A stretch of 64,000 nt of DNA, taken from NCBI GenBank assembly GCA_015178975.1, contig WHVD01000029.1, positions 434,001 to 498,000 on the forward strand. The letters run 5' to 3'. This DNA is from Hysterangium stoloniferum. Lineage: Eukaryota; Basidiomycota; Agaricomycetes; Hysterangiales; Hysterangiaceae. A program made the position numbers and the translations under genes. The notes below the pieces were generated by a model, which saw only the letters and a program-made list of their open reading frames with translations, was not told the origin of the DNA and did no database searches. The first letter of the stretch is position 1, and every line of letters begins with the position of its first letter. This document shows positions 11,086-38,447 of the stretch, one piece after another.

Positions 11086-11097
11086 CCTCTGCTTGCC

Positions 11098-14000: not shown

Positions 14001-14164
14001 CGCGGAATACTATACGGGGGACATTAAGGTTATGTGTGGAGACGAGGAAAATGAACTTACAATGTGCCGTGGACAAGTATTTTGACCGTATAAATGACTC
14101 CCAGAAGGAGAATAACAACATTGGCCAAAGGACCAATGTTGCGAGCCATAGCTTTGATGACCAT
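11098..14164 (-). pseudogene. Membrane/repeat protein, left copy (frameshifted)
   Basis: This is the counterpart of the gene at 45831. Exons on the minus strand are 14164-14061, 14009-13629, 13571-13410, 13367-13014, 12956-12795 and 12753 onward, with the same phases as the right copy. Unlike the right copy, exon 6 keeps a full second hydrophobic module (ACVVVTALMVAYL, then WLLKIAATIVFKLPKFVLGC). It has two, not three, of the 79-residue Thr/Ala-rich repeats. Near 11358 one G is missing from a run (GGG instead of GGGG). This shifts the frame inside the 57-residue repeat region: the original frame closes at 11286, and the C-terminal end is found in another frame down to 11098. The frameshift affects only the tail. 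No domain is recognised. Confidence 0.7.
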
Positions 14165-19467: not shown

Positions 19468-19613
19468 GGAGGGTGTTTATAATTACTATAATCTCAAATA
19501 TTTACTAATAAAAGTCTTATTTTTACAAAACTCTATCTTTAAATAGTGATATCTATTCTGAAACAATTATATCATCAAAAAACAACCATCAGAAATAGTT
19601 CTCCATATTACCA
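19468..19613 (+). repeat. Terminal-repeat fragment (GGAGGGTG end)
   Basis: This block begins GGAGGGTGTTTATAATTAC immediately after Copia sequence. It is the reverse complement of 32680-32819, with about one substitution and one indel. It is one end of the 675-bp repeat 32145-32819. The rest of this copy is found at 37926-38447, so the repeat was cut by a rearrangement near 19613. The preceding Copia bases ATA are repeated at the other Copia junction (32142-32144), consistent with a 3-bp target duplication. Confidence 0.8.
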
Positions 19614-19918
19614 TCTTCCAGCTCTCATTTGGCATTACTTGGATGACTTTTTGCAGCTTTTCAAACCCCATACCCCACTTCCTCTTATCCATTCAGCTCT
19701 TGAATGGAGTCATGGCTTAGAAAATGCCTTGCTCTCCATTTCCAAGATCTAAGATTGAGGGACCATCAACATGCCTTGAATACTTAGGCATTGAACTTGA
19801 TTCCATGGCTATGGAAGCTCATCTACCTGCAGGTAAACTGACATACAGTATCTGTCAAACCTTCTCTTCCATCAATTGCAGCCTCACTGATCTCAGTCCA
19901 AATGTTGATAGAACTTGA
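19614..19918 (+). pseudogene. DIRS/tyrosine-recombinase-type RT fragment
   Basis: The fragment encodes LPALIWHYLDDFLQLFKP, with an intact YLDD catalytic box. After a frameshift near 19740 it encodes EGPSTCLEYLGIELDSMAM. The combination of HYLDDF with GP-TCL-FLGIELD is typical of reverse transcriptases of DIRS-like, tyrosine-recombinase retroelements of fungi. Neither the rest of the RT nor a recombinase is visible nearby. The fragment begins at the rearrangement breakpoint. Confidence 0.65.
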
Positions 19919-20325
19919 GTATATTCATCTATGAACAGAGACAGCAGTACACAATAGCAACAGTAGGTAAAACAATGATGAAAAAACTACTATGCATGTT
20001 TATCCTAATTATCTAAGGAAGCAGATACTGAATATTAAAGGTCTGTTGTGGTAAGCCTCACCAGGCTTACACCTCTCCCCACTTTGAAAAATACAGCATC
20101 CCCAACAGCCAAGTTTGCAGATGGTAGGACCATTATGGCAGATGAGTTGCAATTCAGAGAATCACAATGGGTGATGAAGATGATACCAGAATGAACTGAA
20201 AAATAAAGTCAAGGGAATTCCATGCTGCTTGCTGTTAATTGTCCAATCCCAATTCTGAATCTGTATCCCTCATCCCTAACACTGGGACTAGAACACCTAA
20301 TGGCCATTGAACCAGAGTGGGTGGG
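19919..20325. other. Gene-free flank of the Gypsy insertion
   Basis: No ORF or repeat of note is seen. The last five bases, GTGGG at 20321-20325, are the left copy of the target duplication of the Gypsy element; the right copy is 27944-27948. Confidence 0.6.
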
Positions 20326-21037
20326 TGTTACGACCCGTTCCCGGATGTTTCAATATCTGACTTCCGATCTCTGACTTCCGACTTCCGATCTCTGACTTCC
20401 GACTTCCGATCTCTGACTTCCGACTTCCGATCTCTGACTTCCGACTTCCGATCTCTGACTTCCGACTTCCGATCTCTGACTTCCGACTTCCGATCTCTGA
20501 CTTCCGACTTCCGATCTCTGACTTCCGACTTCCGATCTCCGACTACGGAACATCATAGTTACCATATCATCCACATTCTTCCCTTGTTCCGCATTTGGTA
20601 ATTTGTCCATTGACAAGTATTCACTCGTTTGTTTGTTGTATTCCCGTTTCGGAATATTGTCTCCCTAATATGTCTTATTGTACTTCCGTTTTAAGAACAC
20701 TTCCATTTCCGTCTTATTATGGTCTTAGTTTGTAGTACAATAACGAGTAGACTTATATTAGTTTCCGCGAATTTGTACTTTACTTTAGATCTGATATCGA
20801 CTTAGTTTCTTATTCCTCCTTCCGTCTTTCTGTACGCTCGATATTCGGAACTCTTCAGAACTCTGAATATCCATATCTTCCGTCATAAGTTTTACTTCTG
20901 AAATTAAGGACATTGAGCGTTTGCGTAGAGGTGCAGCACATAAGCTGAAGCCGACGTCCTGACCCTATCCACGAGTTTCCAACTTCCTGGTGACTTTCCG
21001 ATAGTTCCGGAATAAGTTCCCGACATGGCACTTAACA
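20326..21037 (+). repeat. 5' LTR, enlarged by a 21-bp VNTR
   Basis: The LTR begins TGTTACGACCC and ends CTTAACA. It is 712 bp against 544 bp for the 3' LTR. The extra 168 bp equals exactly eight units of 21 bp inserted at 20358-20540. Apart from this, the LTRs differ almost only by transitions at CpG sites. Confidence 0.93.
20356..20541. repeat. 21-bp tandem repeat within the 5' LTR
   Basis: The unit TGACTTCCGACTTCCGATCTC is present eight times more often than in the 3' LTR, which has only one partial unit (CGACTTCCGATCTC). The unit itself contains two CGACTT/CCGATC-type sub-repeats, giving a template for slippage. Open frames across it on both strands are an artefact of a 21-bp (multiple of three) period. 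Confidence 0.93.
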
Positions 21038-21071
21038 GTATATCAGATCTCAACTCTGCGACTCGCTCATC

Positions 21072-22301
21072 ATGGGTCCCAAACACAAAGCTGCCGAAGG
21101 ACCATCCCAACTTCAATCCCCGTTGTAACTTTACACCACCCAACCCGAAACCCCATTTCAGCCGACAACATCAGCTTCAGTCGAAGAAGTTACCGAGGAG
21201 GTTACCGAGGTAACAAAGGACACCAATGTTCCCCACACTTCCGACAACGAAGCAGAAGATCAGCCGGAGACATCGAAAAAGAAATCTTCCGACGAACTAA
21301 CTGAAATGTTGTTTATCAACTCCATTGTGAAATTCACTGACTACTTGAAATCCGCTGAGGATAGTAAAGAATCATCCCGCACTGGAGTCAAAGAACCCGA
21401 ACCATTTACCGGCAAGGATCCGAAAAAATTGAAGAATTTCCTTCTCCAATGCCGTTTCAGTTTCCGTGATTGACCCAATGCATTTAAATCCGACAGTCAA
21501 AAAGTCAATTTTGCGCTCTCATATCTCAAGGATACCGCTCAGGATTGGTTCGAACCCGGACTATCCGGAATATCTGACGAGACACCCGTATGGCTCGACG
21601 ACTGGGACGCTTTTGTGGAAGAACTGGAAACCAATTTCGGACCTTACGATCAATCTGGCGAAGCGGAAAATGAATTAATGACGCTCAAGATGAAGGCCAA
21701 TCAACGAGTTTCCGATTATCTCGTCAAGTTCAATACCCTCGCCACAAGATGTGGATGGGACGATTCTGCCCTCAGGCACCATTTCTATATGGGACTTCCG
21801 TCATGCCTTAAAGACGAAATCTGCAAAGATGGAAAGCCGAAAACTCTCCAACTCATGCAGATTAAAGCTCAAACATCCGATGCCCGTTATTGGGAACGAA
21901 AAGCCGAGGTTTCTTGAGAGAACCCGATGGAATGTTCTCAGAACAACAAGGCGTTGACTAGCAAGTCTTCCGGCAACAACTCAGGCAATAACACCGGCAA
22001 CTCTGGCACTAATACTGGCAAATCAAACTCCAACAAGAAGAAAGACAAGAAATCCAACAAGGAAAAACAGTCAACTTCCGACAAACCCGACATTTCCCAT
22101 TTGTTGGGTACCGACGGTAAACTCACCCCAAAGGAGAAACAACGATGTATGGACAACGACCTCTGCCTTTTCTGTGGGAAAGGCGGACACAAGGTTTCCG
22201 ACTGTACCGTTAAATCTAACTCTTCCAAGGCTCGGGCGGCAACTTCCACTACGACTACAACGTCCAAGGAAAAACCCACCATGGAGCTGAAAAAAGAGTA
22301 A
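21072..22301 (+). pseudogene. gag: Gypsy gag
   Basis: From the ATG at 21072, the N-terminus is acidic and threonine-rich (VEEVTEEVTEVTKD). It is followed by the Gag core (KEPEPFTGKDPKKLKNFLL, AQDWFEPGLSG, ALRHHFYMGLP), an Asn/Ser/Gly/Lys-rich linker and a CCHC knuckle CLFCGKGGHKVSDC at about 22165-22205. Stops interrupt it at 21125 (TAA), 21471 (TGA for arginine in FRDRPN by comparison) and 21915 (TGA). The TAA at 22299 closes the frame before the protease, so gag and pol may normally be in separate or recoded frames. Confidence 0.85.
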
Positions 22302-22419
22302 GCAACCCTCCGGAATCTGCACGGACAGAGGGTTGCGTTGACTCTCTCCATGTTTCCGAGGTTATCCGTCTCAACGCGTCTGCTCTCTCAATCCCGATTC
22401 ATTATTTGTAAAACTCATT

Positions 22420-25400
22420 TCTGACTTTCTTGGAAATTTAGTGTTCTGAGCTCTGATAGATTCCGGCTCCACACACTGTTTTGTAGATACCACCTTTGCC
22501 ACGAAACATAATCTGAAACTCCATTCTGTTCCCGCAATTTCCTTGCGTCTGTTTGACGGCACTAGCAATACGGCAATTACTCAAGCCTGTGACATGTGTA
22601 TCCGGTTCCCTTGTGGAACATCCCAGATAGTTACTTTTTTCATAACACAGTTAGACTCTAGCTGTTCGGTAGTTCTTGGATACAACTGGCTCACCCGATA
22701 TAATCCGTTGATTGACTGGGTATTGGGCAGTATTAATTTCCATATTCCCGACACTTCGGTTCCTCCTGCAGCATCTCTTCCGGCCAACGCCTTTTCGGCA
22801 TCTACGGCACCTCCGGCTTCTATCAAAACTTCCGAGCCTCCAAAAATCTCTCTCATCAACACTTCAGCATTTGTTAGGGCGAGTAAACTGGACGGTTCGC
22901 AATGTTTTTCAATCAGCTTAAAAGTTGATAAAGCATCTGGACGTTTTGTGACTCCAGAATTATCCGAGCTAAAAGCCGACCTGGAAGGAGTTCCCGAAAA
23001 ATACCATGATTTCGCAGACATTTTCAGTAAGCAAAAAGCTGACAGGCTTGCACCACATAGGCTCTACGACTTAAAAATCGATATTGAGCCCGGTTCAAAC
23101 CCTCCGTTAGGACCTATTTACCCATTATCCCAATCGGAACTTTCGTCTATTCGAGAGTTCCTGGATGAACATTTGTCGATAGGTTTTATCCGTCCCTCAA
23201 AGTCTCTGTATGGAGCACCCGTCCTTTTCGTCCAAAAGAAGGATGGTTCTCTTCGACTCTGTGTCGATTTCAGAGGATTAAATTCCATCACACGGAAAGA
23301 CAAGTATCCACTTCCACTCATTACCAATTTACTCGACGCCCCACAGAAAGCTCGGATTTACACCAAAATAGACCTCAAACACGCCTATCATTTGGTCCGA
23401 ATTGCCGAGGGCGATGAATGGAAAACTGCTTTTCGGACTCGCTATGGATCCTTTGAATGGTTGGTTATGCCGTTCGGCCTTACCAACGCCCCTTCCGCTT
23501 TCAACGTTTTGTTAATGATATATTTTCCGACGTGCTCAACGTATGTGTTATAGTCTATTTGGACGACATTTTGGTATTTTCCGAGGATCCCGCTCTTCAC
23601 GATGAACAGGTTCGTGAAGTCTTCCGAAGACTCCGTAAAAATGGTCTCTTCGCCAACGGTAAAAAATGCTACTTTGACATGGATTCTATTGAATACTTAG
23701 GTTTCATTATCGGACCTGATGGTCTTCGTATGGATGAAACCAAGGTTCAAGTTGTCCGTGACTGGCCCGAACCATGGAAAGTCAAGGATATTCAGTCATT
23801 TTTAGGTTTTGCCAACTTTTACCGTCATTTTATTCGGAACTACTCGGATATTACAGTACCGCTCACTCATCTTACCCGTAAAACTCAACCATGGGTCTTT
23901 GATGACAAATGCCGCTCCGCTTTCCAGACTTTAAAAAATGCTTTCACTTCTGCCCCAATCCTTTCCCATTGGAAACCTGATGTTCCGATTATTGTGGAAA
24001 CCGATGCTTCCGATTATGCAATTGCCACGATTCTTTCCATTCAAGATTCCGACGGTGAAATTCATCTGGTTGCATTTCTTTCTCGGACACTGAAAGTGTC
24101 CGAACTCAACTACAACGTTCATGATAAGGAACTTTTGGCAATTTTTGAAGCTTTTAAACATTGGCGCCATTATCTCGAAGGTTCCTCAACTCCTGTTGAC
24201 GTTGTTACCAATCACAAAAATCTCGAATATTTTTCTACCACTAAACTTTTAACCCACCGGCAGGCCCGTTGGTCTGAATTCCTTTCCGCTTTCAACATGA
24301 TTATCCATTTCTGACCCGGATGTCTTGGTGGAAAACCAGATGCCATGACTCGACGATGGGATGTCTATCCTAAAGAGGGGGAAAGTAACTATGCCGTTGT
24401 TAATCCGCATAACTTAAAACCAGTTTTTACAACGCAACAACTTTCTGCATCTATCCGAGCAACTTCCCTTTACTATCCAATTATGCATAGCATCATGATT
24501 ATGGACATTGAGCAATTACATCAAGATATCCTTTCCGCACTCACTTCCGACCCGGCTCTCAAGCCACACCTAGAAGTTCCTGACAATCTGAACCAACCCC
24601 GATGGTCACAAGACTCTCAAGGTTTTATCCATCTCGATGGACATATCTACGTTCCAGATTCCAACAATCTCCGACTCCGCGTACTTCAGTATAAACACGA
24701 TCATCCAATCTCCGGACATTACGGCATTAACAATACTCTTGGTTTAATCCGTAGAGAATACACTTGGCCTAACCTCCGAGATTTCGTAACCCAGTTCTGT
24801 AAGTCATGCACCACCTGCTTACGCTCCAAAACCCAGAGGCATAAGCCGTACGGCCTTCTCAAGCAACTCCCGATACCAGAAAAACCCTGGAATTTAATTT
24901 CCATGGATTTTATCGAACAACTCCCGACTTCCGAAGGCTTTACATCCATTCTAGTTATTGTGGATCGATTCTCGAAACAAGGCATTTTCATACCCACTCA
25001 TGATACAATCACGTCCTTACAATTAGCGGAACTTTTCATTATTCACGTATTTTCCAAACACGGAGTTCCGTCTCACGTAACTTCCGATCGAGGCTCCAAG
25101 TTTGTCTCCCACTTCTTCCAGGCTCTCGGAAAAGCCCTCGACATGAAATTACACTTCACCTCGGGATATCACCCGGAAGGTGATGGACAAATGGAACACG
25201 TTAATCAAACACTGGAACAATATCTCCACATCTATTGTAATTATCAACAGGACAACTGGAAATCCCTTCTTCCGATCGTGGAATTCGCCTACAATAACTC
25301 TCCGAATGCAACTACCGGCGTATCTCCTTTCTTCGCCAACAAAGGCTATAATCTGAATCTCACTGTACATTCCGAACGAGATTTGGCTTCTGTCTGTGCT

Positions 25401-25985
25401 CAAGAATTTATTACCGATCTCGACAAATTACATTAAGAACTTCGGAAAGCTATTTCTTCCGCACAGGAATATTATCAACGTTCTGCAGACAAAAACAGGA
25501 TCCCGCCTCCTAATTTTAAAATTGGTGATCAGGTTTTTGTAAAAGCTCAATTCTTCCGTACTACCCGACCTTCTAAAAAACTCACTGAGAAATTCTTAGG
25601 ACCTTTTGAAATTATAACACAAGCCGGTTCACTCTCATGGACTCTCCGACTTCCCGACAGTATGCGAGCAGTCCACCCCGTTTTCCACATTTCCATGTTA
25701 GAACCTTGTGTTCCTAACTCAATCCCGGAACATATTCAACCTCTGTCCCCTCCGGTCATCATTGATGGAGAACCTGAATTTGAAGTTTCCGAAATTTTGG
25801 ATTCTAAAATCGACAATCGCCGACGTACTTGTAAATTGCTCTATTTAGTCAAATGGGCAGGTTATGAAGGTACCGACAAGGAAACTTCATGGATATTGGC
25901 CACGGAACTAGGACACGCTATGGAAATTGTCACTGATTTCCACACGGCTTACCCAAGTAAACCCGGACCTTTATCATCACTCTAA
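22420..25985 (+). pseudogene. pol: Gypsy pol (PR-RT-RH-IN-chromodomain)
   Basis: The protease has [13 protein letters not shown] near 22450, just after a TGA. RT spans about 23030-23720 with [44 protein letters not shown] and an intact YLDD box at about 23555. RNase H is at about 23900-24300 (ETDASDYAI, ELNYNVHDKELLAI). Integrase is at about 24650-25400, with an HH-CC zinc site ending in CKSCTTC, then SMDFIEQLP, VTSDRGSKFVS and VNQTLEQYL. The chromodomain (FEVSEILDSKIDNRRR, YLVKWAGYEG) is at about 25770-25950. Defects are TGA 22447, a one-base deletion near 23500 after NAPSAF, TGA 24312 and TAA 25434. The frame is otherwise open over long stretches. Confidence 0.92.
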
Positions 25986-26084
25986 CCCTTTTCTGTTTTC
26001 TTTCTGTTCAGTTTCCGACACTCTCGACACTTCCGATATCACACTTGTTTTAGGTTTTGCAAGTCAAAAAAAATATTATTAGGA

Positions 26085-27215
26085 CTATTTTAAAGTCTCT
26101 GACACCCCAAATCCTCCCATATCATCCGCAATTTCCACACTTTCCACCATATCCTGCACCTCTTCATCCTCACTCTCCGATTCTTCCAGTCCATTTCCCG
26201 ATGCCCACCTTTTTTCGACACATTCCACCAACGGATCATTAGGCTCTTCCCGTGCCTTATCGGAAAACCTCTCAGATACTGCAATAACACCAATGCTAAC
26301 CATTATCTTCTCCAGGAAATCATTTTGCCTCCGGAAATTCCGGACCAATGAACGGAAACCCTTCTCCTGGATATCATTGTGGCGATCCATTGTGTCCTGC
26401 ATTTTCATGACTTCCGTCCCGATAAAAACCAACACGCCGACGGTTTCCTTGAGGAGCTCAATGCCAGTGTTATCCATTTTCAGTGTTTCAGTTTCCGTAG
26501 CTTTGGCCACTCCTGAACTTTCCGCGTCGTTAGTTTTTGGAATCTCCTCACCCTTTGGAACCCTTTTTGAGGCAAGGGTGCACGGAAGTTTGAGAACCAC
26601 ACAGGGATAACAAGTCCCACCCCATTTTACCTTCTGTTTCCAACATGTCATATTCCGTACGGAACATCAATAACACGGAGTTTCATGGACGATTTCCATC
26701 CGTTCTGGAGCCTTGACCTTTTATTTCTGTTTCGGAAGATTAGTCAATTACTGATCTTATGCAGATGCACTTACTTTAGGACTCGAAGGCCCAGCTTCTC
26801 CCTCTACCTCCACCTCCACGGCTTTTCGCTGTACGCAAAAGTTATCAGTTGGAACCATGGAAATTTATGAAATTGGACTTACCTTTCCTTCCCTTACCTA
26901 TTTACTTTTTTCCGCTGCCTCAGTCTCTCGCTGTAACTTCTCCGCTTCTTCCTTCTGTTTCTGAACCTTCGCCGTTTCCCAGATCCACGCTTCCTTCTCT
27001 GCTTTTGCCCGCTCCAATTCCCGCTTTTCCGCCTCTTCCACATCTTTCAACTCCTGCATCAACGCTTTTTCCTCCTCCTCCTGTCGTTGTTTCAACTCCT
27101 CCATTTTTTGGCATTTTTGTTGAAGTTCTGCGACCTTCAACATTTTTTGAAGTACGGATAATTCAGTATCTGAGTCTTCCGGGGTAGTGATGAATAACGG
27201 CCGACGAATCGACAT
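26085..27215 (-). CDS. Antisense spliced gene inside the Gypsy 3' region
   Basis: Between pol and the 3' LTR, the opposite strand carries a gene-like sequence. From the ATG at 27215, about 100 residues form a Glu/Lys/Gln-rich coiled coil (MLKVAELQQKCQKMEELKQR). Then come two typical introns, each GTAAGT...CAG, about 53 and 48 bp at about 26882-26830 and 26774-26727, around a short acidic exon (VEVEVEGEAGPSSPK). The last part (26651-26085) starts MTCWKQKVKWGGTCYPCVV, has a cysteine cluster, and ends in an acidic ESESEDEEVQDMV tail. An in-frame TAG just before the first intron suggests the copy is damaged. Similar coiled-coil plus Cys-cluster hypothetical proteins occur in Agaricomycetes; no function is claimed. 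Confidence 0.5.
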
Positions 27216-27399
27216 ACAAGTCGTGGATAAAGAAACAAAAATGTTAATTTGAATATCTGGAGGTTTTTATACTCAGAACATCAGCCGAAACTCTCACCTC
27301 CATATTTGCGTAAATTCCACGACACATAACAATCAGCCATCGCTTCAATCACTCAGTACCTAATCGCCTCTATGGGATTTCGGCCTAACAGGGGGGTAC

Positions 27400-27943
27400 T
27401 GTTACGACCCATTCCCGGATGTTTCAATATCCGACTTCCGATCTCCGACTACGGAACATCATAGTTACCGTATCATCTGCATTCTTCCCTTGTTCCACAT
27501 TTGGTAATTTGTCCATTGACAAGTATTCACTCGTTTGTTTGTTGTATTCCCATTTCAGAATATTGTCTCCCTAATATGTCTTATTGTATTTCCATTTTAA
27601 GAACACTTCCGTTTCCGTCTTATTATGGTCTTAGTTTGTAGTACAATAACGAGTAGACTTATATTAGTTTCCGCGAATTTGTACTTTACTTTAGATCTGA
27701 TATCGACTTAGTTTCTTATTCCTCCTTCCGTCTTTCTGTACGCTCGATATTCGGAACTCTTTGGAACTCTGAATATCCATATCTTCCGTCGTAAGTTTTA
27801 CTTCTGAAATTAAGGACATTGAGCATTTGCGTAGAGGCGCAGCACATAAGCTGAAGCCAATGTCCTGACCCTATCCACAAGTTTCCGACTTCCCGGTGAC
27901 TTTCCGATAGTTCCGGAATAAGTTCCCGACATGGCACTTAACA
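27400..27943 (+). repeat. 3' LTR of the Gypsy chromovirus
   Basis: It begins TGTTACGACCC after the G-rich tract and ends CTTAACA, followed by GTGGG, the target duplication. Compared with the 5' LTR I count about 19 CpG sites changed to TpG or CpA in one or the other copy and only one or two other substitutions. Confidence 0.93.
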
Positions 27944-27948
27944 GTGGG

Positions 27949-28687
27949 ATAATCATATGCACCATAAGGTGACTCTTGCAAAATTGCCACTGTAGCTGTG
28001 GTTGCAGTAGTAGTTGGAACAGGTGTAGAGGTGGTGCTCATAATGGTTAATGGACTAAAATCCTGGCCAGGATGAGCACCAATGGTGGGGTTGCCTGGGC
28101 AGGTGTGATGTTGATGAGGGACCCAACCCAGGTCTGTTGGTTTGCCACAACAATTCCAACACCCTCAAATGGCTGTAAGCACAGCCTTCTCCTCCCTCAT
28201 GATTGGAAGGAATTTAGGAGGAGTGATGATACTGGCAGGGCTGGTGGCATTGCCAGTCGATGATGTGAGAAGTGGAATGCCGGTGGAGCTAGTATAATTG
28301 ATGTGAGCCAAAGAACAGCCTGAGCAAGCTGCATTGTCAGCAACAAGGCTGTCCCACTGTGATCCCATAAGGGCAATCAGTTCATCAGGCATCTGAGATG
28401 AATTGTCAATGTCGAAGGCCTGGAGTGCATGCATACAAAGGTATAGGAGGGAGTGAGAGTGAAAAATAATATGATGTTTGTAAATGGCTGTAGATATTGT
28501 CACAGAAGGAAGGGTGCCAAGACACTGGGAAAGGTCCATTGCAAATGTGCAAAAATTGCACTTGCCTTGAGAACAGGAATAAAACTGTTCCAACACATCC
28601 ATCTTCCAATTGACCGGCATGAAACAATCTTTTACCTTCTTGATGAATGACTCCCAGGAAGGCATAAATAAAGCATATATTAGCCAA
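27949..28687 (-). pseudogene. Retroelement Gag-like protein fragment
   Basis: The minus-strand frame 28665-28165 reads SWESFIKKVKDCFMPVNWK, VLEQFYSCSQGK and ALMGSQWDSLVADNAACSG. The pattern W-F--KV-D-F-P-NWK followed by an aromatic-rich block resembles the Gag-like proteins encoded in Agaricomycete retroelements. It may be the partner of the DIRS-type RT fragment at 19614, because the Gypsy element lies between the two pieces, but their orientations differ. The start is uncertain, because an overlapping frame reads into it from 28687. Confidence 0.5.
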
Positions 28688-29829
28688 ATAGTGTTTTATT
28701 TTATATCTAATCTTTTGACCTGTTTATAAATATTTTTACTGTTTGATAAATAGTATAAAATGTATATAAACTAGCTAGAATCGAAGTCGAATCTAGTTTC
28801 TGAATCAGTGAATTGTTATTCATATTTTAGTACTTGTTTTCACAGAAAAAGAACAGCTTGCAAAAGCAGCTCTCAAAACCTTCTTTGCGAAGTAGGGTGC
28901 ATATATTCAAGTAAACTCTTGACTTCGGGGGTTCTAAGTCTATTCAGGCTGCCACTGATTAATATCAAATACTTAAATTATTTTACCTTGCAGTGAATTG
29001 AGTATTTGCACATGATAGAGCATTGGACTCCTTTTTCAGAAGATAGTATTAAAATAAGGCTAATACATCACAACTGCCTATATACATACTGTCTAAGGCA
29101 AAGAATCATCATGGGCTTGGACTGACATTATTCTGCCCATTCCTTATCCTAGTTGTATTTTGGATTTGGGCTTTTTGGATTTACACCTGAGTCCTTTACA
29201 TATATCCTCTAACAAAAAACCTGATTTATGTACCATTATATATATTTAAAATCTGTCCATCTTAGATTTTCACAGATACTAGTGCTCCAAAGTAACAAAT
29301 TCTCACAACTCTTATAGAAGTGTAGAGTAACTGGAAAGAAAAAAAATCACAAATAGCAATGGATAGAAAGGCTAATCAGAGTCTCAACAAGGAATATAAT
29401 GTGGTTTGGGTAGGAATTGCAGAAGTTGACTGCCAGAGGCTCAAAAGACTTCAAACTCCAACATAGCAATGTGCTGCACACTGCTGTGAGGGGTGTCACA
29501 AAAAGTGGGCAATTGCTGCGAACAGACATTTTGGTTTCAAACTAAAACAGAGTCATATTTTGAAAGGTAACACTCAAAATATCATGTTAAATGTGACAAA
29601 ATTTGAACTGAGCTAGAACAGAAAAAAGGCAGCAGATTCCCAAGACTCAGTTGCTGCCTAATGAGGCTGTAGGGAAACAACTGAGGTTGTACTCCATAGC
29701 TTTGCATATATATATATACGTGTGGGTGAGAAATGTGCTCATATGATAAAAGGAAAAAAATGTAAGTGGGTGGTCCAGTCTGACATGTAATCTGGTAGTG
29801 TTGCCACACTCAGGGCATGAAAATTACCA
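28688..29829. other. AT-rich gene-free stretch
   Basis: The sequence is AT-rich with no ORF above noise and no recognised repeat family. A short TATATATATATACG run lies near 29705. Confidence 0.5.
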
Positions 29830-32144
29830 GTTTTTGTCACTCCCACTCAAGTGTACTTGTAATCCCATAGCTGTCATAAATTTCCAGTGTTGTTCATGGG
29901 ACAAGGGTTTCATCAGAATGTCAGCCACCATGTCTGCAGTGCATACATAGCTCACTATGGCTTCTCCTTTGGCCACCAAATCATCACGTACATGATGATA
30001 TTTTCGCTGAATGTGTTTTGTGTGGGCTTAGAATTGTGAGTCCTTAAAAAGAATAATAGCACCTGGTTATTGCAGTGTACCTCAGTAGGTTGACTTTGTG
30101 GATACCCCTTCAAAAACTTTTATAGCCATTGCAAGTGCTGGCCTGCCACACTGAGCCCAATGTATTCAGATTCAGTGCTTGACAGTGCTACCATCAACTG
30201 GTGTTTGCTGGCCCAAGAAATGGCCCCCCTGTTCATGATAAAAACATAGCCTGATGTAGATCAGGATGTTTCAGTATCGCCAGACCAGTCGGCATCCATG
30301 TAACTGTGAAAGTCCATATCAAGTGATATATCTAATCCATCATATGTCAGTTGGAGTTCTGTAGTGGCTCTTAGGTATCAAAGCACCCTCTTACCAGCCT
30401 CCCAATGGCATGCCTTTGGTGCTGCACTGAAGTGGCTCAGTAATCCAACTGAGTATGCGAAACCAAGCATGGCATACATGAGTGACCCAATTATAGTTGG
30501 GTAAGATACTCACCATCCTTCAATGGTCATTTCGAGTATGGTGAGATTGTTTTTATTTGAATTTGGAGTTTCAGAAGTTAAATTAGAATTTCATGCCAGT
30601 GGTGTCCACACTGGCTTGCAGTTCTTTATGCCTGTGCATTTGAGGACCATGTGCATGTACTGTGACTGTGACAAAGCTATTGTTCATGTTGATCTGTTTT
30701 GCTGAATTTCTAGCCCAAGTATGAATTTTGCTTCCCCTAAGTCCTTCATCTTGAAGGTTGAGGAAAGTGATGTTTTAATGGAATCCATGAACGACTGTGA
30801 ACTTGCTGCCAAAATCATGTCAGCTACATACACGACTAAGAAACATACTTGATCTCCCTTGTGGTAAACATACAAGCATGTTTCTGCATCTAGCCTGGTA
30901 AAACCAAGTTCCCCAAGTTTTCAGTCAAGGGTCTTGTGCCAGGAACTGGCCTGCTTCAAACCATACAGTGAATGCTTTAGTCTCCAACAGTATCCAGGTT
31001 CAATTTCTACTCCTTCAGGAGGAAGTACAGTTCCTCTTCCAGTTCACCATTTAAGTATGCTGTGGTGACATCCATTTGATCTAGTTCCAAGTTATACTTT
31101 GCTGCCAAGGCTAGTATGATTTGGATTGACTCTAGGTTTGCCACTGGAGCAAAAACTTCTTGATAATTGATGCCTTCACATTGCATGAAACCCCAAGCTA
31201 CAATCCAAACTTTGTACCACATTGCATTTCCAGATTCATCAAATTTTATTCGAAAAACTGGTTTTGATGTTATTGGCATGACCCCCTTAGGTATTGGAAC
31301 GATCTTGTATACCTGGTTCGAATTTAGTGACATCAGTTCCTCTTCCAACACAGACTTCCACAGTTCCTTATCAGGGCATTTGAGAGTCTCTTTCAAGGTG
31401 TTTGGTAGGTCATTATTTGACAGATTTGTATTGGTAAGTCCAGCAAAAAGGGTATCATCTTCTAGGAGGTCCTCCAGTGTGGACTGCTTTTGTGCAGCTT
31501 CTTTGTCCAAGGTCCATTGATAGTTCTTGCAGGCTTTCACTGACATGAACTATGTTGTATTTCTGGTGCTGCTTGGATCATAGGATTGGAATGCTCATCC
31601 TGTGACTTTCCTACAGGTGTTTGTGGCCCTGACATTTGCAATTGGGGCTCAACCACTTGATTGCCTATGGGGATGTGCACTGGTACAACTGTTGCCATTG
31701 GATGTGGTAGGTGTTGCAGTTGTCCTCCCACTGTCTCAAGGTCAGGTGTTTCTACTTGTTCAGACTCATTTTCATCCTCCTCAAGGGAACTTTGAAACTG
31801 TGGGTCCCCTTCCTTAATCAAGTCCTCCCACTGATGTGCAGATGTATTGGAGATCCAGGGTGCAATATCAGAGTCTGTAGGTGATCCATCTTCATCAAAG
31901 ATGACATGCCTGCTTGATATTACAGTGTGTCGCTTTAGGTTCAACAACTTGTATACCTTTTGGCCATAGGTGCAACCCAGGAGGATACATTTGCTTGCAT
32001 GGGGGCAAAACCTTCCCCCATGTTGGTCTTTTGGTGCATGTGTGTATGCCAGGCATCCAAAATGTCGAAAAAATATAGCATCCACTTGACATATGAACAA
32101 CAACTCATATGGGGTCTTTCCTTTTAATGCAGTTGTCAGACTAT
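29830..32144 (-). pseudogene. pol: Ty1/Copia back part: IN end, RT, RNase H
   Basis: Read from 32144 down: the end of integrase (SLTTALKGKTPYEL, FFRHFGCLAYTHAPKD), a linker, RT (WKSVLEEELMSLNSNQVYKI, NYQEVFAPVANLESI, QMDVTTAYLNGELEEELYF) and RNase H (YMDADWSGDTETS, STSGYVFIMNRGAISWASK, STESEYIGLSVAGQ) ending near 29880. The catalytic box reads YVADM, so the first aspartate of YVDD is lost. Stops at the RT/RNase H arginines are TGA. This is the missing second half of the Copia copy at 18582-19467, on the other strand. No LTR was identified. Confidence 0.88.
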
Positions 32145-32819
32145 GGAGGATATCTGAAAACTATTAAGTATACCAAATTCTAATATACTCTAAAGGTCAT
32201 TTAAACATCTGGGATGTGATTCAAACATAATTTGGTTTTTAAAACTTTCAAAAAGTTTTAAACTCTCTCATACATTACAAACTAATGAATCTTTCTGGAC
32301 ACGACTAGACAATAAAAAAAATTAGTAGTTTGAAACACTAATACTTTTAAAAAATAGATACCTTTAAATAGTCCATTCCATGCATATGTATATCATTGGC
32401 ACCTCTAAATACATATGTATTACTTCAGAATAGATCTGTCAATCTAAACAGATTTCTACTTGATTCAACATACCCAGAATATATAGGAGGTTTTACTTAA
32501 TAAAGACAACTGTGGTATGAAAAATTTCCAATAATATTTTACATATTTTACATGGAAATAACTTCATTACAACTTATAAAAAACAAAAAACAAATAAAAG
32601 TATTAGTAGGCATCTGTAAAAGGAAGGAAATTATATACAATGGAATTTGTTAAATAACTATGGGTTGTATAAGATGTAATATGGAGAACTATTTCTGATG
32701 GTTGTTTTTTGATGATATAATTGTTTCAGAATAGATATCACTATTTAAAGATGGAGTTTTGTAAAAATAAGACTTTTATTAGTAAATATTTGAGATTATA
32801 GTAATTATAAACACCCTCC
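32145..32819. repeat. Complete long terminal direct repeat
   Basis: This 675-bp block starts GGAGGATATCTGAAAAC and ends ATAAACACCCTCC, so its two ends form a short imperfect inverted repeat (GGAGG...CCTCC). 32145-32667 is repeated in the same orientation at 37926-38447 (about 98 percent by eye), and 32680-32819 is repeated inverted at 19468-19613. It has no ORF. On its left it abuts Copia sequence (TCTGACTAT in plus orientation). It is either a long terminal direct repeat of the gene-carrying element or a MITE present twice. Confidence 0.85.
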
Positions 32820-32856
32820 TTAATGAAGGTCTTGATTTGCAAATTGAAAAAATGTA

Positions 32857-34396
32857 ATGAGAGTACTTCTATTGTGGTCTTCCATGGCAAATGAGGCACT
32901 CAAAGAATGTATTGATATTATAAAAGAGTTCAGTATACCTGATGTTCTGGATACTAAATACCACAATCCTTTAGAAGCCATTAGACTATCTTTTGAATCT
33001 GCTAATACTTCACATATTTTCTGTGATAATATAATTCTATGGTCTATTGGAGGAGACTTTAGAAATAATATATATGGAAAATGTAAAGTATATTTCTCAC
33101 TTTCCTTTAAGATCAAGTTATTGCACTCAGATACTCTCAAAAATAATGATATTGCACCTACAAATACTCCTTACTTTTCTTATAAAATTTCATTATCTGA
33201 GGTACCTATCAAAAACATAATAAAATTCCTAAGAGAAACCATTTGTGATGAAATTATATTACATGATATATGTAGATATCTCCCAAGATATCTCCTATGT
33301 TACTACTAGAAAAGATGTTCTTAAGCATATATTAAATATTGGAATAAGAAAAGATGATATTATAGATGATAGAAAAAAGGTTGGAGATAATTGTATATCC
33401 TTTTATAATGAAGATCACTCATGTAAGATCAAAGTATATAACAAATTTGTACAAATGCTAGAAAGCTGTGATGTGATGACTACTTTAGGATCTAGAATCC
33501 ACAATTTATATGTTGATCCTACTGAGTCAATGTCACAATCACTAGAAAGATTAAAGGATGTGGGAATGACAAGGATTGAAGTTAAGTTTTATGGTGACAA
33601 AGTATTTTCAAAATCATGGTATATACACAACTTTATTAATATTAGAAATAATTTTAATGGATGTAGATTCTATAGAAGTTCCTTTGAAGAGCAGTGGAGA
33701 GCACTTGTAGATAGCATCTATTCCAAATCAACAATAATGGTTTACTTAAAAGATAGAAAGTTTTTTGTATATTGCCATTGGTGGAATTCTTTAACAGGAA
33801 AGATCCAAGGAGGCTTCCAAAAGAATGTAAATAAGGAAGATATAATTCAATTAGTTTCTAACTATAGTTTTAATGGAAATACTACCAAACTTGTTAGGGT
33901 TGATGATGGGATAACCATGGTAGAGGAATACAAAAGGTCACAAAAGGGGATTACACTTATACCTGGTCCTAAAGGAGGACTCTATCCTAGGATTGAGAGT
34001 TCATTTTCACCAAGTGATATAGGACTTGTGGATTACAAAGGAGTAAAGCTTGGTTGGGTAGATACTCGTATAACTAAAAAATCAGCTCCCCTTGTCCCAC
34101 TTCATAAAATTAGTAAGAATTTAGAAGAGGTGAGTGATTTGAGGGTATCTAGTTATAAGGCAGGATACTCAATTCTTAAAGAAAATTCAAAATATCAAGT
34201 TATATCAAAGGGTCAACTTTTATATAGGGGAAAGAATTGCACTGTTATAGAAGTCTTAGATAAAAATTCAGAAGTACTAAAGGTAAGGTGTGGAGAATCC
34301 TTACAAAATGCTGTAAAGGATATGAAAGATAAGACTTATATAAGAACTGGTAGAATAGTAAAAAGACATGGACAGAAAGATATACATATAAAATGA
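32857..34396 (+). CDS. ~510-aa element protein, YNK motif (frameshift)
   Basis: Two overlapping frames, 32857-33309 and 33245-34396, read as one protein if two bases (TA) are added in the ATATAT run at about 33268-33273. The first frame then continues ILHDI straight into YVDISQDISYVTTRKDVLK. The second frame has CKIKVYNKFVQMLES, then LGSRIHNLYVDPTESMSQSL and MTRIEVKFYG, followed by a C-terminal domain with GKNCTVIEVL. A tyrosine in a R/K-x-YNK-x-x-E context and a preceding DIS-DI-Y block recall rolling-circle replication initiators, but no HUH motif is visible. The similarity is an impression, not a search result. The frameshift may be a real mutation or a recoding site. The first ATG may be further downstream, at 32881. 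Confidence 0.55.
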
Positions 34397-34427
34397 AAAA
34401 AGTTCAGTCTACTACTTCTGTACCAGA

Positions 34428-34739
34428 ATGGATCTCCTTGAGACCAATATCACTAACCTCAATGGACAACATATAAATAATATATGTGAGATAGTAGTCT
34501 TATCATTGTCACTAGATCTTAAAATGAAAAAGATCCTTGTAGCAGTTGTAGAACTTAATATCAAACTTGTCAAGAAAGGTTCTTCAAAACTTAATGAGGA
34601 ATCTTGTGGTAGTGATGTTATATTCTTCCTTCTTAATATTGGAAAAGATCTAGAACATAAATTATTTTCCAAGGTAAATATAGATGATGAGGTAGTGGAG
34701 AAATTAGTTGAATATGTAAGAATAACTGAAGATCCCTAA
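34428..34739 (+). CDS. 103-aa element protein, unknown
   Basis: A small open frame starts 31 bases after the preceding stop on the same strand and ends 24 bases before the left arm of the hairpin. It is Leu/Ile/Lys-rich (LSLSLDLKMKKILVAVVELN) with no recognised motif. The tight spacing and shared strand suggest that it belongs to the element. An antisense frame over the same region is a shadow. Confidence 0.45.
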   Translation: MDLLETNITNLNGQHINNICEIVVLSLSLDLKMKKILVAVVELNIKLVKKGSSKLNEESCGSDVIFFLLNIGKDLEHKLFSKVNIDDEVVEKLVEYVRITEDP

Positions 34740-34762
34740 AATATTACTACAATATTTAAACC

Positions 34763-35468
34763 TATTTCCCATAAATCCTATTTTTAAAAGAAATTTCAAC
34801 TAACCTATTTCCCATAAATCCTCCTTTTTAAAAGTAATCCAAAAATCCTTTAAAATCCCATAATAAAGATTAAAAATTAATAAAGGGTAGCGGTGACATA
34901 TGCTTAGGGGCCCAGCCCCCAGTTAATCTTAATAGTTCTTTTACCCCAATAAATTATCCAAATTTCAGTTGTCTTCTTACTGTAATTATTCAGAAGGGCT
35001 GTAGCTATTACCATCCAACCTTTTCTATTTTCAGGATTTACCAATGTTTCAACTATCTTAGATCTTCAACAACAATAATATCTATTTAGCAAGTTAGAGA
35101 CTATATTTCTTTTAGTAAGCTAGGAACTGTATTTGAATTATTAATAGAATTTCTGAAAAGGGGGATATAGTTGAAACATTGGTAAATCCTGAAAATAGAA
35201 AAGGTTGGATGGTAATAGCTACAGCCCTTCTGAATAATTACAGTAAGAAGACAACTGAAATTTGGATAATTTATTGGGGTAAAAGAACTATTAAGATTAA
35301 CTGGGGGCTGGGCCCCTAAGCATATGTCACCGCTACTACCCTTTATTAATTTTTAATCTTTATTATGGGATTTTAAAGGATTTTTGGATTACTTTTAAAA
35401 AGGAGGATTTATGGGAAATACAGTAGGTTAGTTGAAATTTCTTTTAAAAATAGGATTTATGGGAAATA
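34763..35468. repeat. Large hairpin: ~300-bp inverted repeat
   Basis: Arms 34763-35056 and 35167-35468 are inverted copies with few differences around a 110-bp loop. Each arm contains TATTTCCCATAAATCC twice at its outer end and GGGGCCCAGCCCC in the middle. The hairpin fills the space between two convergent gene sets: the plus ORF stops at 34739 and the minus ORF stops at 35468-35470. It could be a foldback MITE, a bidirectional terminator or a replication structure; the sequence alone does not decide. Confidence 0.92.
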
Positions 35469-35469
35469 A

Positions 35470-35808
35470 TTAGGGTTCTATTAAATAAATTTTAGGATCC
35501 CCAGTTATTCCAAGATCTCTTTTTATTTCTTCAAATCTAGGTGGAAATTTTGATAAGACCTCTTGAACATTTATTTCTTCTTTATGATATAAAGTTTCAT
35601 AAAGACATAGAATAAAGACATCAGTTTCACCTTTAGGTCTATCCTCTTGTTTTTCAAGTCTGAAATTTAGTACAGGACAACCACTTCTCCTTATCAAATT
35701 TTTGATGGATCCTGTGTATCCATCCTCAGTACTTATGCCATGTCTTCTACACTGTTCTAAGATCTTTCCTTCCCTAACTTTATATCCTAGTACTTTGGGG
35801 AAGTTCAT
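35470..35808 (-). CDS. 112-aa element protein, unknown
   Basis: The open frame MNFPKVLGYKVREGKILEQ...YLIEP is followed by a stop that touches the right arm of the hairpin. It lies 26 bases downstream of the stop of the PD-(D/E)XK-like ORF on the same strand. Open sequence in this frame extends upstream without an ATG into the end of that ORF, so the two may be joined by a small intron or frameshift. No domain is recognised. Confidence 0.5.
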   Translation of the reverse strand: MNFPKVLGYKVREGKILEQCRRHGISTEDGYTGSIKNLIRRSGCPVLNFRLEKQEDRPKGETDVFILCLYETLYHKEEINVQEVLSKFPPRFEEIKRDLGITGDPKIYLIEP

Positions 35809-35834
35809 ATTACCTAATCTCTCTCTATATATCT

Positions 35835-36458
35835 TTAAAAGTTCATTTTGGAATAATATTCTTTCATCTCTTTTACAAGAAGGTCAAAAGACTTCTTATC
35901 CATGATATCAAGTATTTTAGATTTATATGCTATTTCAAATACTTCTTCCTCTTCTTCATCACTAGGAATATAGCTTTTATTACCCCAAGAATTTTTAGGC
36001 TTGTGACTATTTGAAGTATTTTTTCTTATAAACTTGTACCATTTCCAGGTTCTACCAGAGGAAGCTACTCCAAAGATTCCTTTATAGCTTTTATCTAGGA
36101 AGATTATTCTTATATATTCTTTAAGTTGGTCACAGGCTACCTCTAATTCTTTCATCAATGTAACTTTATCAGTTCTCTTATTTTCTACTATCAGGTACTT
36201 ACGTTCATGTATTTTGTCTTGTAAATCTTTTTTATAATGAGTTACAACAAAATCTGGTATCATAATCTTAGATATATCTACTTCATCCCTATCTACTGTA
36301 TCATATTGTATGGTTAATTGTGGAGTAATTACAAATTGTGCTTGAAATAATATTCCTAATATAATACTCCATGGTGCATACCAGAAGCATTCTAGATTAC
36401 TTGGATTGATAGAAGCACTTTCAGCAGCACCCACAGATATCTTTAAGATTTGCTCCAT
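35835..36458 (-). CDS. PD-(D/E)XK nuclease-like protein
   Basis: The 207-aa frame contains IMIPDFVVTHYKKDLQDK (about residues 66-83), with KYLIVENKRTDK about eight residues later. An aspartate after hydrophobic-Pro and a V-E-x-K about 25 residues on form the core of the PD-(D/E)XK nuclease fold (D...ExK). A later ACDQLKEYIRIIF helix and FGVASSGRTWKWYKF strand match the usual order in restriction-like nucleases of fungal and transposon origin. Later come an acidic patch (DEEEEEVFE) and a lysine-rich C-terminus. It is divergent from the transposase gene, with about 98 bases between starts, so they may share a promoter. Function is inferred from the motif only. Confidence 0.6.
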   Translation of the reverse strand: MEQILKISVGAAESASINPSNLECFWYAPWSIILGILFQAQFVITPQLTIQYDTVDRDEVDISKIMIPDFVVTHYKKDLQDKIHERKYLIVENKRTDKVTLMKELEVACDQLKEYIRIIFLDKSYKGIFGVASSGRTWKWYKFIRKNTSNSHKPKNSWGNKSYIPSDEEEEEVFEIAYKSKILDIMDKKSFDLLVKEMKEYYSKMNF

Positions 36459-36556
36459 TAGGATTCATACATATAACTAATATACAGGAATTTTCAATAT
36501 TCTCTATTAAATTGAATATTTCTAAATCATTATAGCATTGTATACTAATCATATCA

Positions 36557-37912
36557 ATGTCTCCTCTAAATGAGGAGTTTAATAAGTTAATGGACCAACA
36601 ATGGAAGTTCCTTTATAAGGAATGGCCTCAGATCAAGCCATCCAAGTATCACAGGTCTGATATCAAACCTATTGATAAAATTAGTCACATTAAGGATCTT
36701 GTTCTTCAGAGACTTGGTATTATTCCAGTCTTTTTCTTCCTTGTTGTGGTCTTTGCCACCCAAGATTATCCTGGACCCTATAGAAATATGGAGAAAGGAC
36801 TTTTAATACTATATCAACTACTGCAAGGTTATTCCTTAAATCAAATGTCAGTCTTTATACCTAAAAGTAGTTATTATGATATTTTTAGAAAATTCTATGA
36901 AAGACAAGGTAATGATCTTGATAAAAGGATCTCAACTATGCTCATTTCTATGTTCTCAACTATTGATATATGTATTCATTCTGCACAGAAAAATCCTCCA
37001 TTGTTTAGACATGTAACATTAATGATAGATGGTCATGATACTAGAGCAGGTGTTATTGGTGAGAAGAGTGAAGATATGTATTCATATAAACTCAAGAAAT
37101 CTGGACTTCGGACACAAGTTTGTATTGATATAAATGGCATGGTTCTATTCACATCAAAGTCAGCACCCTGTAAAGATAATTCAGATGGAGTCATGTTTGT
37201 AAAGATGAAATTGGAAAAGTATATAGACAAACTAGATTGTATTGCTTTAGATGGGGGATATCCCTTACACCTTACAAAGATAACAAGTAATACAGAATTA
37301 GATATGATTAACTTCTGTATACCTATACGTAAATCAAAAGGTATAGAATTGTCAAAGGAAGAGAGTACCTTTAACAAAATGTTTGGTAGCTTCAGGTCTA
37401 AGATTGAAGCTACTTTTGGAGAGCTAGCTACCACATTTAAGAAGCTCAGTAATGAAGGAGGTGTTAGAGTTTCTGATGATGGGGTATTCACAACCCAGTT
37501 AAAGCTTGGATGTCTCTTATTAAATGTGAAGAAGTTTGTAATTTTAGGTGGTATTCAACCTCAACCTCATCACTCTTCATGGTTATCTTCAGAGTTTGAC
37601 TACTGGAAAGATGAAAATATTGAAACATATGAAAATCTCCCATCATTGACAGATAGTGGAAGCAATGCTCAGGAAATGCTCAAGCTTCAAAGAAATTTTC
37701 TGAGTATGGAGTTAGGTGATGATGAAGATATGGATGAGACAGATGAGGCATATGAAATTGAGGAAATAATAAACCATAGAGGAAAAGGAAAGTTCAGAGA
37801 GTACCTTGTAAAATGGAAGGGATATGAAGATGTAACTTGGCAAGGAGTGAGGAGTTTTGATACCACAGAGTGTATAGATGAATACTGGAAAAAGAAAGGA
37901 GAAGAAATTTGA
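36557..37912 (+). CDS. DDE_Tnp_4-type transposase with chromodomain
   Basis: The intact 451-aa frame appears to be an IS5/PIF-Harbinger-like DDE transposase. It shows LMIDGHDTRAG near residue 156 (first Asp), CIALDGGYP near 228 (second Asp, in the LxDGGY context) and FGSFRSKIEATFGELATTFK near 275 (catalytic Glu helix). The last ~60 residues, YEIEEIINHRGKGKFREYLV, then KWKGYEDVTW, are a chromodomain (the xYLVKWKGY-W core). A chromodomain could steer integration to marked chromatin, as in chromoviruses. The stop lies 14 bases before the repeat at 37926. The start ATG at 36557 leaves an ordinary N-terminus; no intron is needed. Confidence 0.85.
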   Translation: MSPLNEEFNKLMDQQWKFLYKEWPQIKPSKYHRSDIKPIDKISHIKDLVLQRLGIIPVFFFLVVVFATQDYPGPYRNMEKGLLILYQLLQGYSLNQMSVFIPKSSYYDIFRKFYERQGNDLDKRISTMLISMFSTIDICIHSAQKNPPLFRHVTLMIDGHDTRAGVIGEKSEDMYSYKLKKSGLRTQVCIDINGMVLFTSKSAPCKDNSDGVMFVKMKLEKYIDKLDCIALDGGYPLHLTKITSNTELDMINFCIPIRKSKGIELSKEESTFNKMFGSFRSKIEATFGELATTFKKLSNEGGVRVSDDGVFTTQLKLGCLLLNVKKFVILGGIQPQPHHSSWLSSEFDYWKDENIETYENLPSLTDSGSNAQEMLKLQRNFLSMELGDDEDMDETDEAYEIEEIINHRGKGKFREYLVKWKGYEDVTWQGVRSFDTTECIDEYWKKKGEEI

Positions 37913-37925
37913 TAAACTTCCAGTA

Positions 37926-38447
37926 GGAGGATATCTGAAAACTATTAAGTATACCAAATTCTAATATACTCTAAAGGTCATTGAAACATCTGGGATGTGA
38001 TTCAAACATAATTTGGTTTTTAAAACTTTCAAAAAGTTTTAAACTCTCTCATACATTACAAACTAATGAATCTTTCTGGACACGACTAGACAATAAAAAA
38101 AATTAGTAGTTTGAAACACTAATACTTTTAAAAAATAGATACCTTTAAATAGTTATTCCATGCATATGTATATCATTGGCACCTCTAAATACATATGTAT
38201 TACTTCAGAATAGATCTGTCAATCTAAACAGATTTCTACTTGATTCAACATACCCAGAATATATAGGAGGTTTTACTTAATAAAGACAACTGTGGTATGA
38301 AAAATTTCCAATAATATTTTACATATTTTACATGGAAATAACTTCATTACAACTTTTAAAAAACAAAATACTAATAAAAGTATTAGGAGGCATCTGTAAA
38401 AGGAAGGAAATTATATACAATGGAATTTGTTAAATAACTATGGGTTG
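37926..38447. repeat. Long terminal direct repeat, truncated copy
   Basis: This is the same sequence and orientation as 32145-32667, starting GGAGGATATCTGAAAAC and ending ACTATGGGTTG. It lacks the last ~150 bases. Those bases are found at 19468-19613, inverted. The cut point in this copy and the cut point at 19613 fall within about 10 bases of each other in the repeat. Confidence 0.85.

Follow-up and report, generated by a model that had tools for sequence, protein, structure and literature searches.

A composite-like DDE transposon with long terminal direct repeats in the fungus Hysterangium stoloniferum and the predicted Rep_trans fold of one of its proteins

The stretch analysed here (the window) comprises 64,000 nucleotides of Hysterangium stoloniferum, positions 434001-498000 of contig WHVD01000029.1 (C212; C numbers denote contigs of the 111-Mb assembly, which comprises 554 of them). 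It contains a gene block encoding a DDE transposase with a chromodomain, which is preceded by a 675-bp repeat and followed by a similar repeat in the same orientation that is severed by an inversion. The locus raises the question of whether these parts form a single mobile element and, if so, how its two direct repeats are kept alike. The element is probably a composite-like transposon of the long terminal direct repeat (LTDR) type with a DDE_Tnp_4/PHIS-type transposase, in which a circular or concatemeric form with a single LTDR per unit would serve to renew the repeat pair and in which the product of the first open reading frame (ORF1) is the candidate nicker. Its most unusual part, the predicted Rep_trans-like fold of ORF1, was missed by an earlier account made from the sequence alone (the sequence-only reading), which had described this product as a YNK-motif protein.

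Self-comparison of the window revealed a direct repeat pair (32145-32684 versus 37926-38464, 97.8% identity) and an inverted one (19467-19617 versus 32671-32820, 98.7%). Undoing on paper the inversion of ca. 19,614-38,447 yields a 675-bp LTDR, a 5,106-bp internal block (INT) and another 675-bp LTDR, both repeats being direct, with the target site duplication (TSD) TAT on each side. The parts of this structure are the following:

32142 to 32144, plus strand: TSD copy TAT on the 5' side, read at the element edge.
32145 to 32819, plus strand: 5' LTDR, 675 bp, GGAGG...CCTCC, delimited by self-comparison and genome-wide end counts.
37926 to 38447, plus strand: first ca. 522 bases of the 3' LTDR, severed by the inversion breakpoint, 98.9% identical to the 5' LTDR.
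About 19468 to 19613, minus strand: last ca. 146 bases of the 3' LTDR, moved and inverted, 98.7% identical to 32671-32820.
19465 to 19467, minus strand: TSD copy TAT (ATA on the plus strand), read at the element edge.
About 19614 to 38447, strand not assigned: inverted segment, the undoing of which gives LTDR-INT-LTDR; the joined outer flanks recur at paralogous empty sites.

The un-inverted order is correct: after removal of one TSD copy, the joined outer flanks comprise 178 bases, which align from end to end with four paralogous sites without insert at 88-93% identity (on C46, C35, C544 and C208, the C46 match being 6 bases shorter than the other three); two of the six joined-flank matches correspond to the window's own half-sites. 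The insertion target is Copia-like, with an RVT_2 domain (Pfam, E 3e-26) in the flank ORF 31010-31546. The sequence-only reading had proposed the inversion with its second full repeat, the succession of direct repeat, 5.1-kb block and direct repeat, the outer edges in Copia sequence with a 3-bp ATA duplication, and the GGAGG...CCTCC ends of each repeat, all of which are borne out. The perfect inverted ends of the LTDR are short, with 5 bp in the family of the window copy (family A) and 8 bp in a second family (family B, see below).

Two pairs of large inverted repeats, 12662-18581 / 41412-47332 (97.6%) and 9185-12439 / 47639-50898 (93.8%), enclose both the element and the inversion, whose breakpoints fall within the interval of these repeats and not at repeat edges.

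Between the LTDRs, the window copy contains:

32857 to 34396, plus strand: ORF1, Rep_trans-fold protein as predicted from the fold and motifs of its relatives (511 aa in the intact copy L040).
34428 to 34739, plus strand: ORF2, 103 aa, no Pfam family (ORF list, Pfam scan).
34755 to 35475, strand not assigned: long palindrome between ORF2 and ORF3, the arms of which are kept complementary in each copy (self-comparison, other copies).
35470 to 35808, minus strand: ORF3, 112 aa, no Pfam family above cut-off (ORF list, Pfam scan).
35835 to 36458, minus strand: ORF4, 207 aa, with a PD...ExK motif recognised by eye (IPDFV...VENKR).
36557 to 37912, plus strand: transposase, DDE_Tnp_4 (D158, D232, E284) with a C-terminal chromodomain (Pfam; conservation).

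The order LTDR, ORF1, ORF2, palindrome, ORF3, ORF4, transposase, LTDR recurs across the loci examined, with co-oriented LTDRs. Both outer ends are readable in eight copies including that of the window and in all of them the gene block lies between two direct LTDRs, one 5' LTDR being truncated; the repeat is therefore not confined to solitary elements unlinked to these genes. A 3-bp TSD was found in seven of the eight, namely in five with two full-length LTDRs (AAT in C71, C441 and C152, ATT in C113 and TAT in C1), in C537 (TTA), whose LTDRs are internally deleted, and in the window (TAT), while the two readable outer ends of C464, which has lost its 5' part, show none. In the C152 copy, ORF1 is split by ca. 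4.4 kb. Inner junctions are constant in the copies compared, with GTA between the transposase gene and the 3' LTDR and TTA, TAT or TAA after complete 5' LTDRs. At one locus (L041), the block is truncated and terminates in an oppositely oriented LTDR. Near the start of C441, a family A copy is present as an inverted duplication with the same flanks on both sides (C441:4286-10055; L050, L046), which represents either a real palindrome or an assembly artefact.

The exact 18-base 5' end of the LTDR occurs 645 times genome-wide (full, solo and partial repeats pooled; 0 for the reversed control), and an ORF1 search of the genome returned 34 first-look candidates. Among 27 presumed solo LTDRs, 24 have a 3-bp TSD and two have none, the ends of the last one being unrecognised; a TSD also occurs in all ten extra solos with near-identical repeats (seven of family A and three of family B). 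Because TTA or TAA accounts for only 10 of 43 TSDs (both families, full copies and solos), the target site is mostly AT-rich and differs from the TWA of PIF/Harbinger. Among six full copies the degree of identity depends on the module, with 95-100% identity in the transposase and 81-100% in ORF1 (300-column windows), and the ORF3/ORF4 module exists as two types ca. 65-80% apart. Since these two types adjoin transposase genes that are 95-100% alike, the full copies are mosaics that recombine frequently with one another, as would be favoured by a stage involving a circle or gene conversion. The element is real, recurrent and, because identical copies exist, recently active.

The relationship between the two repeats of a copy was assessed in seven copies (five complete pairs, plus C442 and the window, in each of which one repeat is partial), C537 and C464 being excluded because one of their repeats is badly truncated. 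The true 5'-3' pairing has a mean identity of 99.4%, versus 94.1% on average over all 5,040 pairings, and is the single best one. Among the seven 3' repeats, six copies have their own partner as the nearest, while C442 ties with 99.6% to its own and to that of C71. Both LTDRs of C1 are ca. 15% divergent from those of the window, yet identity to the window reaches 98% over most of its ORF1 (93% in the 5' part) and 97% in its transposase gene; when the genome was searched with the C1 5' LTDR, its own partner came first (98%) and the next match reached 96% (40 of 1,105 candidates being scored). The LTDR pair of C441 is identical and eight more repeats follow at 99-100%, before a drop to 98%. The rank of the true pairing together with the C1 and C441 matches argues that the pair is renewed from one template, which the solos share. 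Two cases are less clear: the partner of the C113 repeat is tenth in a match list that includes the repeat itself, with six copies higher and three tied, and the LTDRs of the window are at least equally close to solos.

Transposases with 48% (C356) or 44% (C141) identity to that of the window are also flanked by direct repeats. The C356 LTDRs are 620 bp long and 99.4% alike, with the ends GGAGGATA...TATCCTCC and the TSD TGG; the C141 element has the TSD TAA and an insert within its 5' repeat. The exact 21-base end of this family B occurs 139 times genome-wide. No match to ORF1-ORF4 was detected in either the C356 or the C141 stretch and, because family B keeps its direct repeats without them, the plan is common to two transposase branches and does not require ORF1. 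One accessory gene of C356 encodes an acidic repeat protein of 394 aa and another a protein of 163 aa with 74% and 70% identity to an ORF of the family A copies C537 and C441, respectively. This extra ORF (159-167 aa in C441 and C537) is located between ORF4 and the transposase and is absent from the window copy.

In line with the chromodomain-fused DDE transposase of the sequence-only reading, Pfam analyses gave DDE_Tnp_4 (the best match over the catalytic part) and Chromo above cut-off in both families, the window transposase reaching 39.1 bits with DDE_Tnp_4 (E 7.5e-10; cut-off 24.8). Of 121 transposase sequences, all have its D158 and D232 and 119 have its E284. The DDE_Tnp_4 family is presumably linked to PHIS transposases. 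A homologue search returned 316 relatives and, among 120 listed, the named ones come from Mortierella relatives and Mucorales. The PD-(D/E)XK-like protein of the sequence-only reading corresponds to ORF4 and, like the YNK protein, exists with relatives elsewhere. ORF4, a putative nuclease, is under purifying selection (ratio of nonsynonymous to synonymous substitution rates, dN/dS, 0.14-0.40 in 10 pairs); its homologue search found three proteins, one of them from H. stoloniferum, its predicted structure (pLDDT 40.7) is too poor for use, and no Pfam family, YqaJ included, matches it above cut-off. Pfam matches to a His-Me finger nuclease were absent among the scanned ORFs of both families, as were Myb/SANT domains in ORF1-ORF4 of the window and in the scanned family B ORFs. 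PHROGs gave 0 matches for five of six proteins and one weak unnamed match (E 0.024) for the sixth.

In the window, ORF1 is broken by a small frameshift between 33245 and 33309; intact copies occur elsewhere, and 8 of the 14 oriented loci have an ORF1 of at least 500 aa. The protein has 77 relatives and no Pfam family. The catalytic domain of the relatives is predicted to adopt the Rep_trans fold: Rep_trans proteins are top-ranked in both PDB comparisons of the predicted structures, and the first and second ranks of a viral structure comparison are held by inovirus proteins. Residues were counted in 68 of the 77 relatives, nine being left out (P0001 numbering). The metal-ligand positions are D47 (65 of the 66 with a residue there), D129 (66 of 68) and E230 (67 of 68), while D133, each residue of K181-x-Y183-x-K185-x-x-Q188, and R228 occur in all 68. 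Carr et al. 2016 (PMC4797284) give as metal ligands of RepDE (RepSTK1) D46 (D9), D142 (D116) and E214 (E196), and as nucleophile of RepDE Y191 with K193 and E196 (Q184 in RepSTK1), R189, D146 and R212 being conserved. In the ORF1 model, Y183 lies on a strand and Q188 in the following helix, as in solved Rep_trans proteins, the active-site match being judged by sequence order and strand positions and not by superposition. The VIA-align alignments start with model residue 39 on residue 1 of 4cij and with model residue 40 on residue 39 of 4cwe; if they are ungapped there, D47 would coincide with the metal ligands D9 and D46, respectively.

The Pfam Rep_trans model (PF02486) had 0 matches in the H. 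stoloniferum genome at E <= 0.001, a B. subtilis control being detected, and Rep_trans was not among the 25 listed of 51 Pfam families for the 68 relatives (E <= 1); a PDB sequence profile search with ORF1 also gave 0 matches. Because the Pfam model matches nothing in the genome, ORF1 was not placed in the Rep_trans family and is best described as a predicted fold relative with the Rep_trans active-site signature, which may be the first one in eukaryotes. A viral source of ORF1 was rejected, since 30 pattern matches in viral contigs led to 0 confirmed relatives.

In every one of six copies, the two arms of the long palindrome are 82-94% complementary. Those of C441 are only 61-70% like the arms of other copies, with changes common to both arms. 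In four of five further copies the unique centre is oriented, by eye, opposite to that of the window, as though it had turned over between the arms. Palindromes are present in the origins of Rep_trans plasmids (PMC4797284), and an archaeal initiator is described as using a hairpin downstream of its own gene (PMC13107129); by analogy, the maintained palindrome is a candidate replication origin. Its occurrence as an independent miniature inverted-repeat transposable element (MITE) was rejected, the 33 first-look places being mostly on contigs of gene-block copies with a few elsewhere.

Because each 675-bp LTDR bears both cutting ends, GGAGG on the left and CCTCC on the right, either one LTDR or the whole unit could transpose. 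The chromodomain transposase would cut at GGAGG...CCTCC and move one LTDR alone, giving the hundreds of solos with a 3-bp TSD, or use the outermost ends of the pair and move the entire LTDR-INT-LTDR unit. The simplest route for renewing the pair would be a circle or concatemer with one LTDR per unit, from which an excised LTDR-INT-LTDR piece would have two identical repeats. ORF1 would nick and copy the one-LTDR circle, for which it is a natural candidate because of its predicted Rep_trans fold and ordered rolling-circle active-site residues, and the palindrome downstream of ORF1 would provide the candidate origin. Such a rolling-circle life cycle is hypothetical but well supported by the structural models. 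A more far-reaching version, in which a eukaryotic DDE transposon with a genuine Rep_trans-type initiator would be a replicon/transposon hybrid with a palindrome origin, a concatemer cut by the transposase and terminally redundant insertions, is put forward only tentatively and may well not hold.

Other explanations were weighed against this renewal through a one-LTDR intermediate. The sequence-only reading had offered a composite mobilised by two MITE-like ends. Its anatomical part stands, since solos carry TSDs of their own (24 of 27 and 10 of 10), inverted ends delimit every single repeat and the copies, many of them solo, number in the hundreds. It is hardly conceivable, by contrast, that two independent MITE insertions came by chance to surround a gene block and later moved together: this is contradicted by the pairing test and by family B, which is built on the identical plan, as well as by the C1 5' repeat having its partner as nearest listed match, the C441 pair lying within a cluster of ten and the constant inner junctions. 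It is also rather improbable that solos derive only from recombination between the LTDRs of full insertions, in the manner of solo long terminal repeats (LTRs), and never transpose alone. Recombination would equally keep the TSDs on solos and suits the clustering of the C441 pair with near-identical solos, but hundreds of repeat ends stand against some tens of gene-block remnants, and in each family two solos are 100% identical (rounded) to a standing pair, which leaves little time for losing many full copies.

The most serious competitor, although still unlikely, is a plain cut-and-paste LTDR transposon in which gene conversion, or unequal crossover following break repair, would maintain the similarity of the repeats, a possibility raised for KolobokP (PMC9587614), and in which ORF1 would serve in DNA binding or strand transfer and not in rolling-circle replication. 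The LTDRs that family B retains without ORF1, the frequent homologous recombination suggested by the mosaic copies, and KolobokP, described with LTDRs and a His-Me nuclease and with no Rep reported in that source (PMC9587614), are all compatible with it; it leaves unexplained the Rep_trans set of Tyr, Lys, Asp and Glu residues kept in all or nearly all of the 68 relatives. That ORF1 would instead be a transcription DNA-binding protein like the TATA-binding proteins (TBPs), with no relation to Rep_trans, is very unlikely. Most of the best PDB rows behind the Rep_trans entries belong to TBPs, but the Rep_trans entries come first in both comparisons, inovirus proteins lead the viral one, and the presumed catalytic residues are present in Rep_trans order.

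The sequence-only reading had considered the element an undescribed multi-gene DDE transposon. A multi-gene DDE element with long direct repeats it is, but the plan is not wholly undescribed: KolobokP has the structure LTDR-INT-LTDR, with LTDRs of ca. 450 or ca. 660 bp, short inverted ends of their own and solo LTDRs with TSDs (Kojima & Bao 2022, PMC9587614). It was reported from seven animal phyla as unlike any other DNA transposon, the molecular pathway of the composite being given there as unknown with a one-LTDR circle among the possibilities (PMC9587614); this was the only paper on KolobokP in the open-licence literature searched. Both systems share the LTDR-INT-LTDR plan, short inverted LTDR ends, RR...YY termini, solo LTDRs with TSDs of a few bp, a comparable LTDR length (675 and 620 bp here) and an internal region with transposase and nuclease, the latter by motif alone here. 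The present element differs in its fungal host, in its DDE_Tnp_4 transposase with chromodomain (a family set apart as far as Pfam tells), in the lack of a detected His-Me nuclease and in having the predicted Rep_trans-fold ORF1 and the palindrome. Multimers of the form (LTDR-INT)n-LTDR were not seen among the loci examined, no genome-wide survey having been made. The element thus has a rare known LTDR architecture with a different transposase.

Bacterial composite transposons and IS26 translocatable units also have direct mobile repeats around genes, with a circle model, while the transposase gene here is in the middle and not in the repeats. Such units are cited in PMC9587614. With PIF/Harbinger and other PHIS elements (Han et al. 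2015, PMC4482050), the element shares a DDE_Tnp_4-type transposase, a 3-bp AT-rich TSD and a terminal G; it differs from PIF/Harbinger in its long direct repeats, the low share of TWA among its TSDs, the lack of a detected Myb/SANT ORF and its several other genes. ISL2EU likewise combines a PHIS transposase with a nuclease-type protein (YqaJ there, a PD-(D/E)XK motif here), whereas it has a 2-bp AT TSD in place of the varied 3-bp ones, and LTDRs, ORF1 and the absence of a YqaJ Pfam match set the present element apart (PMC4482050). ORF1 resembles Rep_trans initiators such as pT181 Rep, RepSTK1 and MOBT (PMC4797284, PMC6499999) and the archaeal Rep-Arvir (PMC13107129) in predicted fold and in the order and identity of metal and tyrosine residues; in contrast to them, it has no sequence-model match, comprises 511 aa with an extra C-terminal part and sits in a eukaryotic DDE transposon instead of a plasmid, phage or integrative and conjugative element. 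According to a 2026 paper (PMC13107129), Rep_trans-type proteins have so far been described for bacteria and, distantly, archaea. Neither a PHIS element with long direct repeats nor a eukaryotic Rep_trans protein was found in the open-licence literature searched.

Elsewhere in the window, a 516-bp direct repeat inside the inverted segment (20524-21039 / 27430-27945, 96%) surrounds ORFs with RVT_1, RNase H and integrase domains and probably represents the LTRs of a Gypsy-like retrotransposon. For the element itself, an LTR retrotransposon was rejected: no reverse transcriptase was detected by Pfam in the six block ORFs, and the Copia-like and Gypsy-like genes are outside the block. In ORF 18489-18857, at the edge of a large inverted repeat, the first 36 residues correspond to the final part of a GMC oxidoreductase (E 5.8e-10), and the window starts with a tandem-repeat array (1-518).

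A second transposase lineage with the KolobokP plan, a similar repeat length and co-renewed pairs suggests that the LTDR architecture is a recurrent and stable strategy. ORF1 would tie this architecture to rolling-circle replication and would extend Rep_trans-type proteins to eukaryotes. If the hybrid proposed above is real, it would add a first eukaryotic branch to the Rep_trans superfamily and provide a mechanism for the persistence of LTDR composites.

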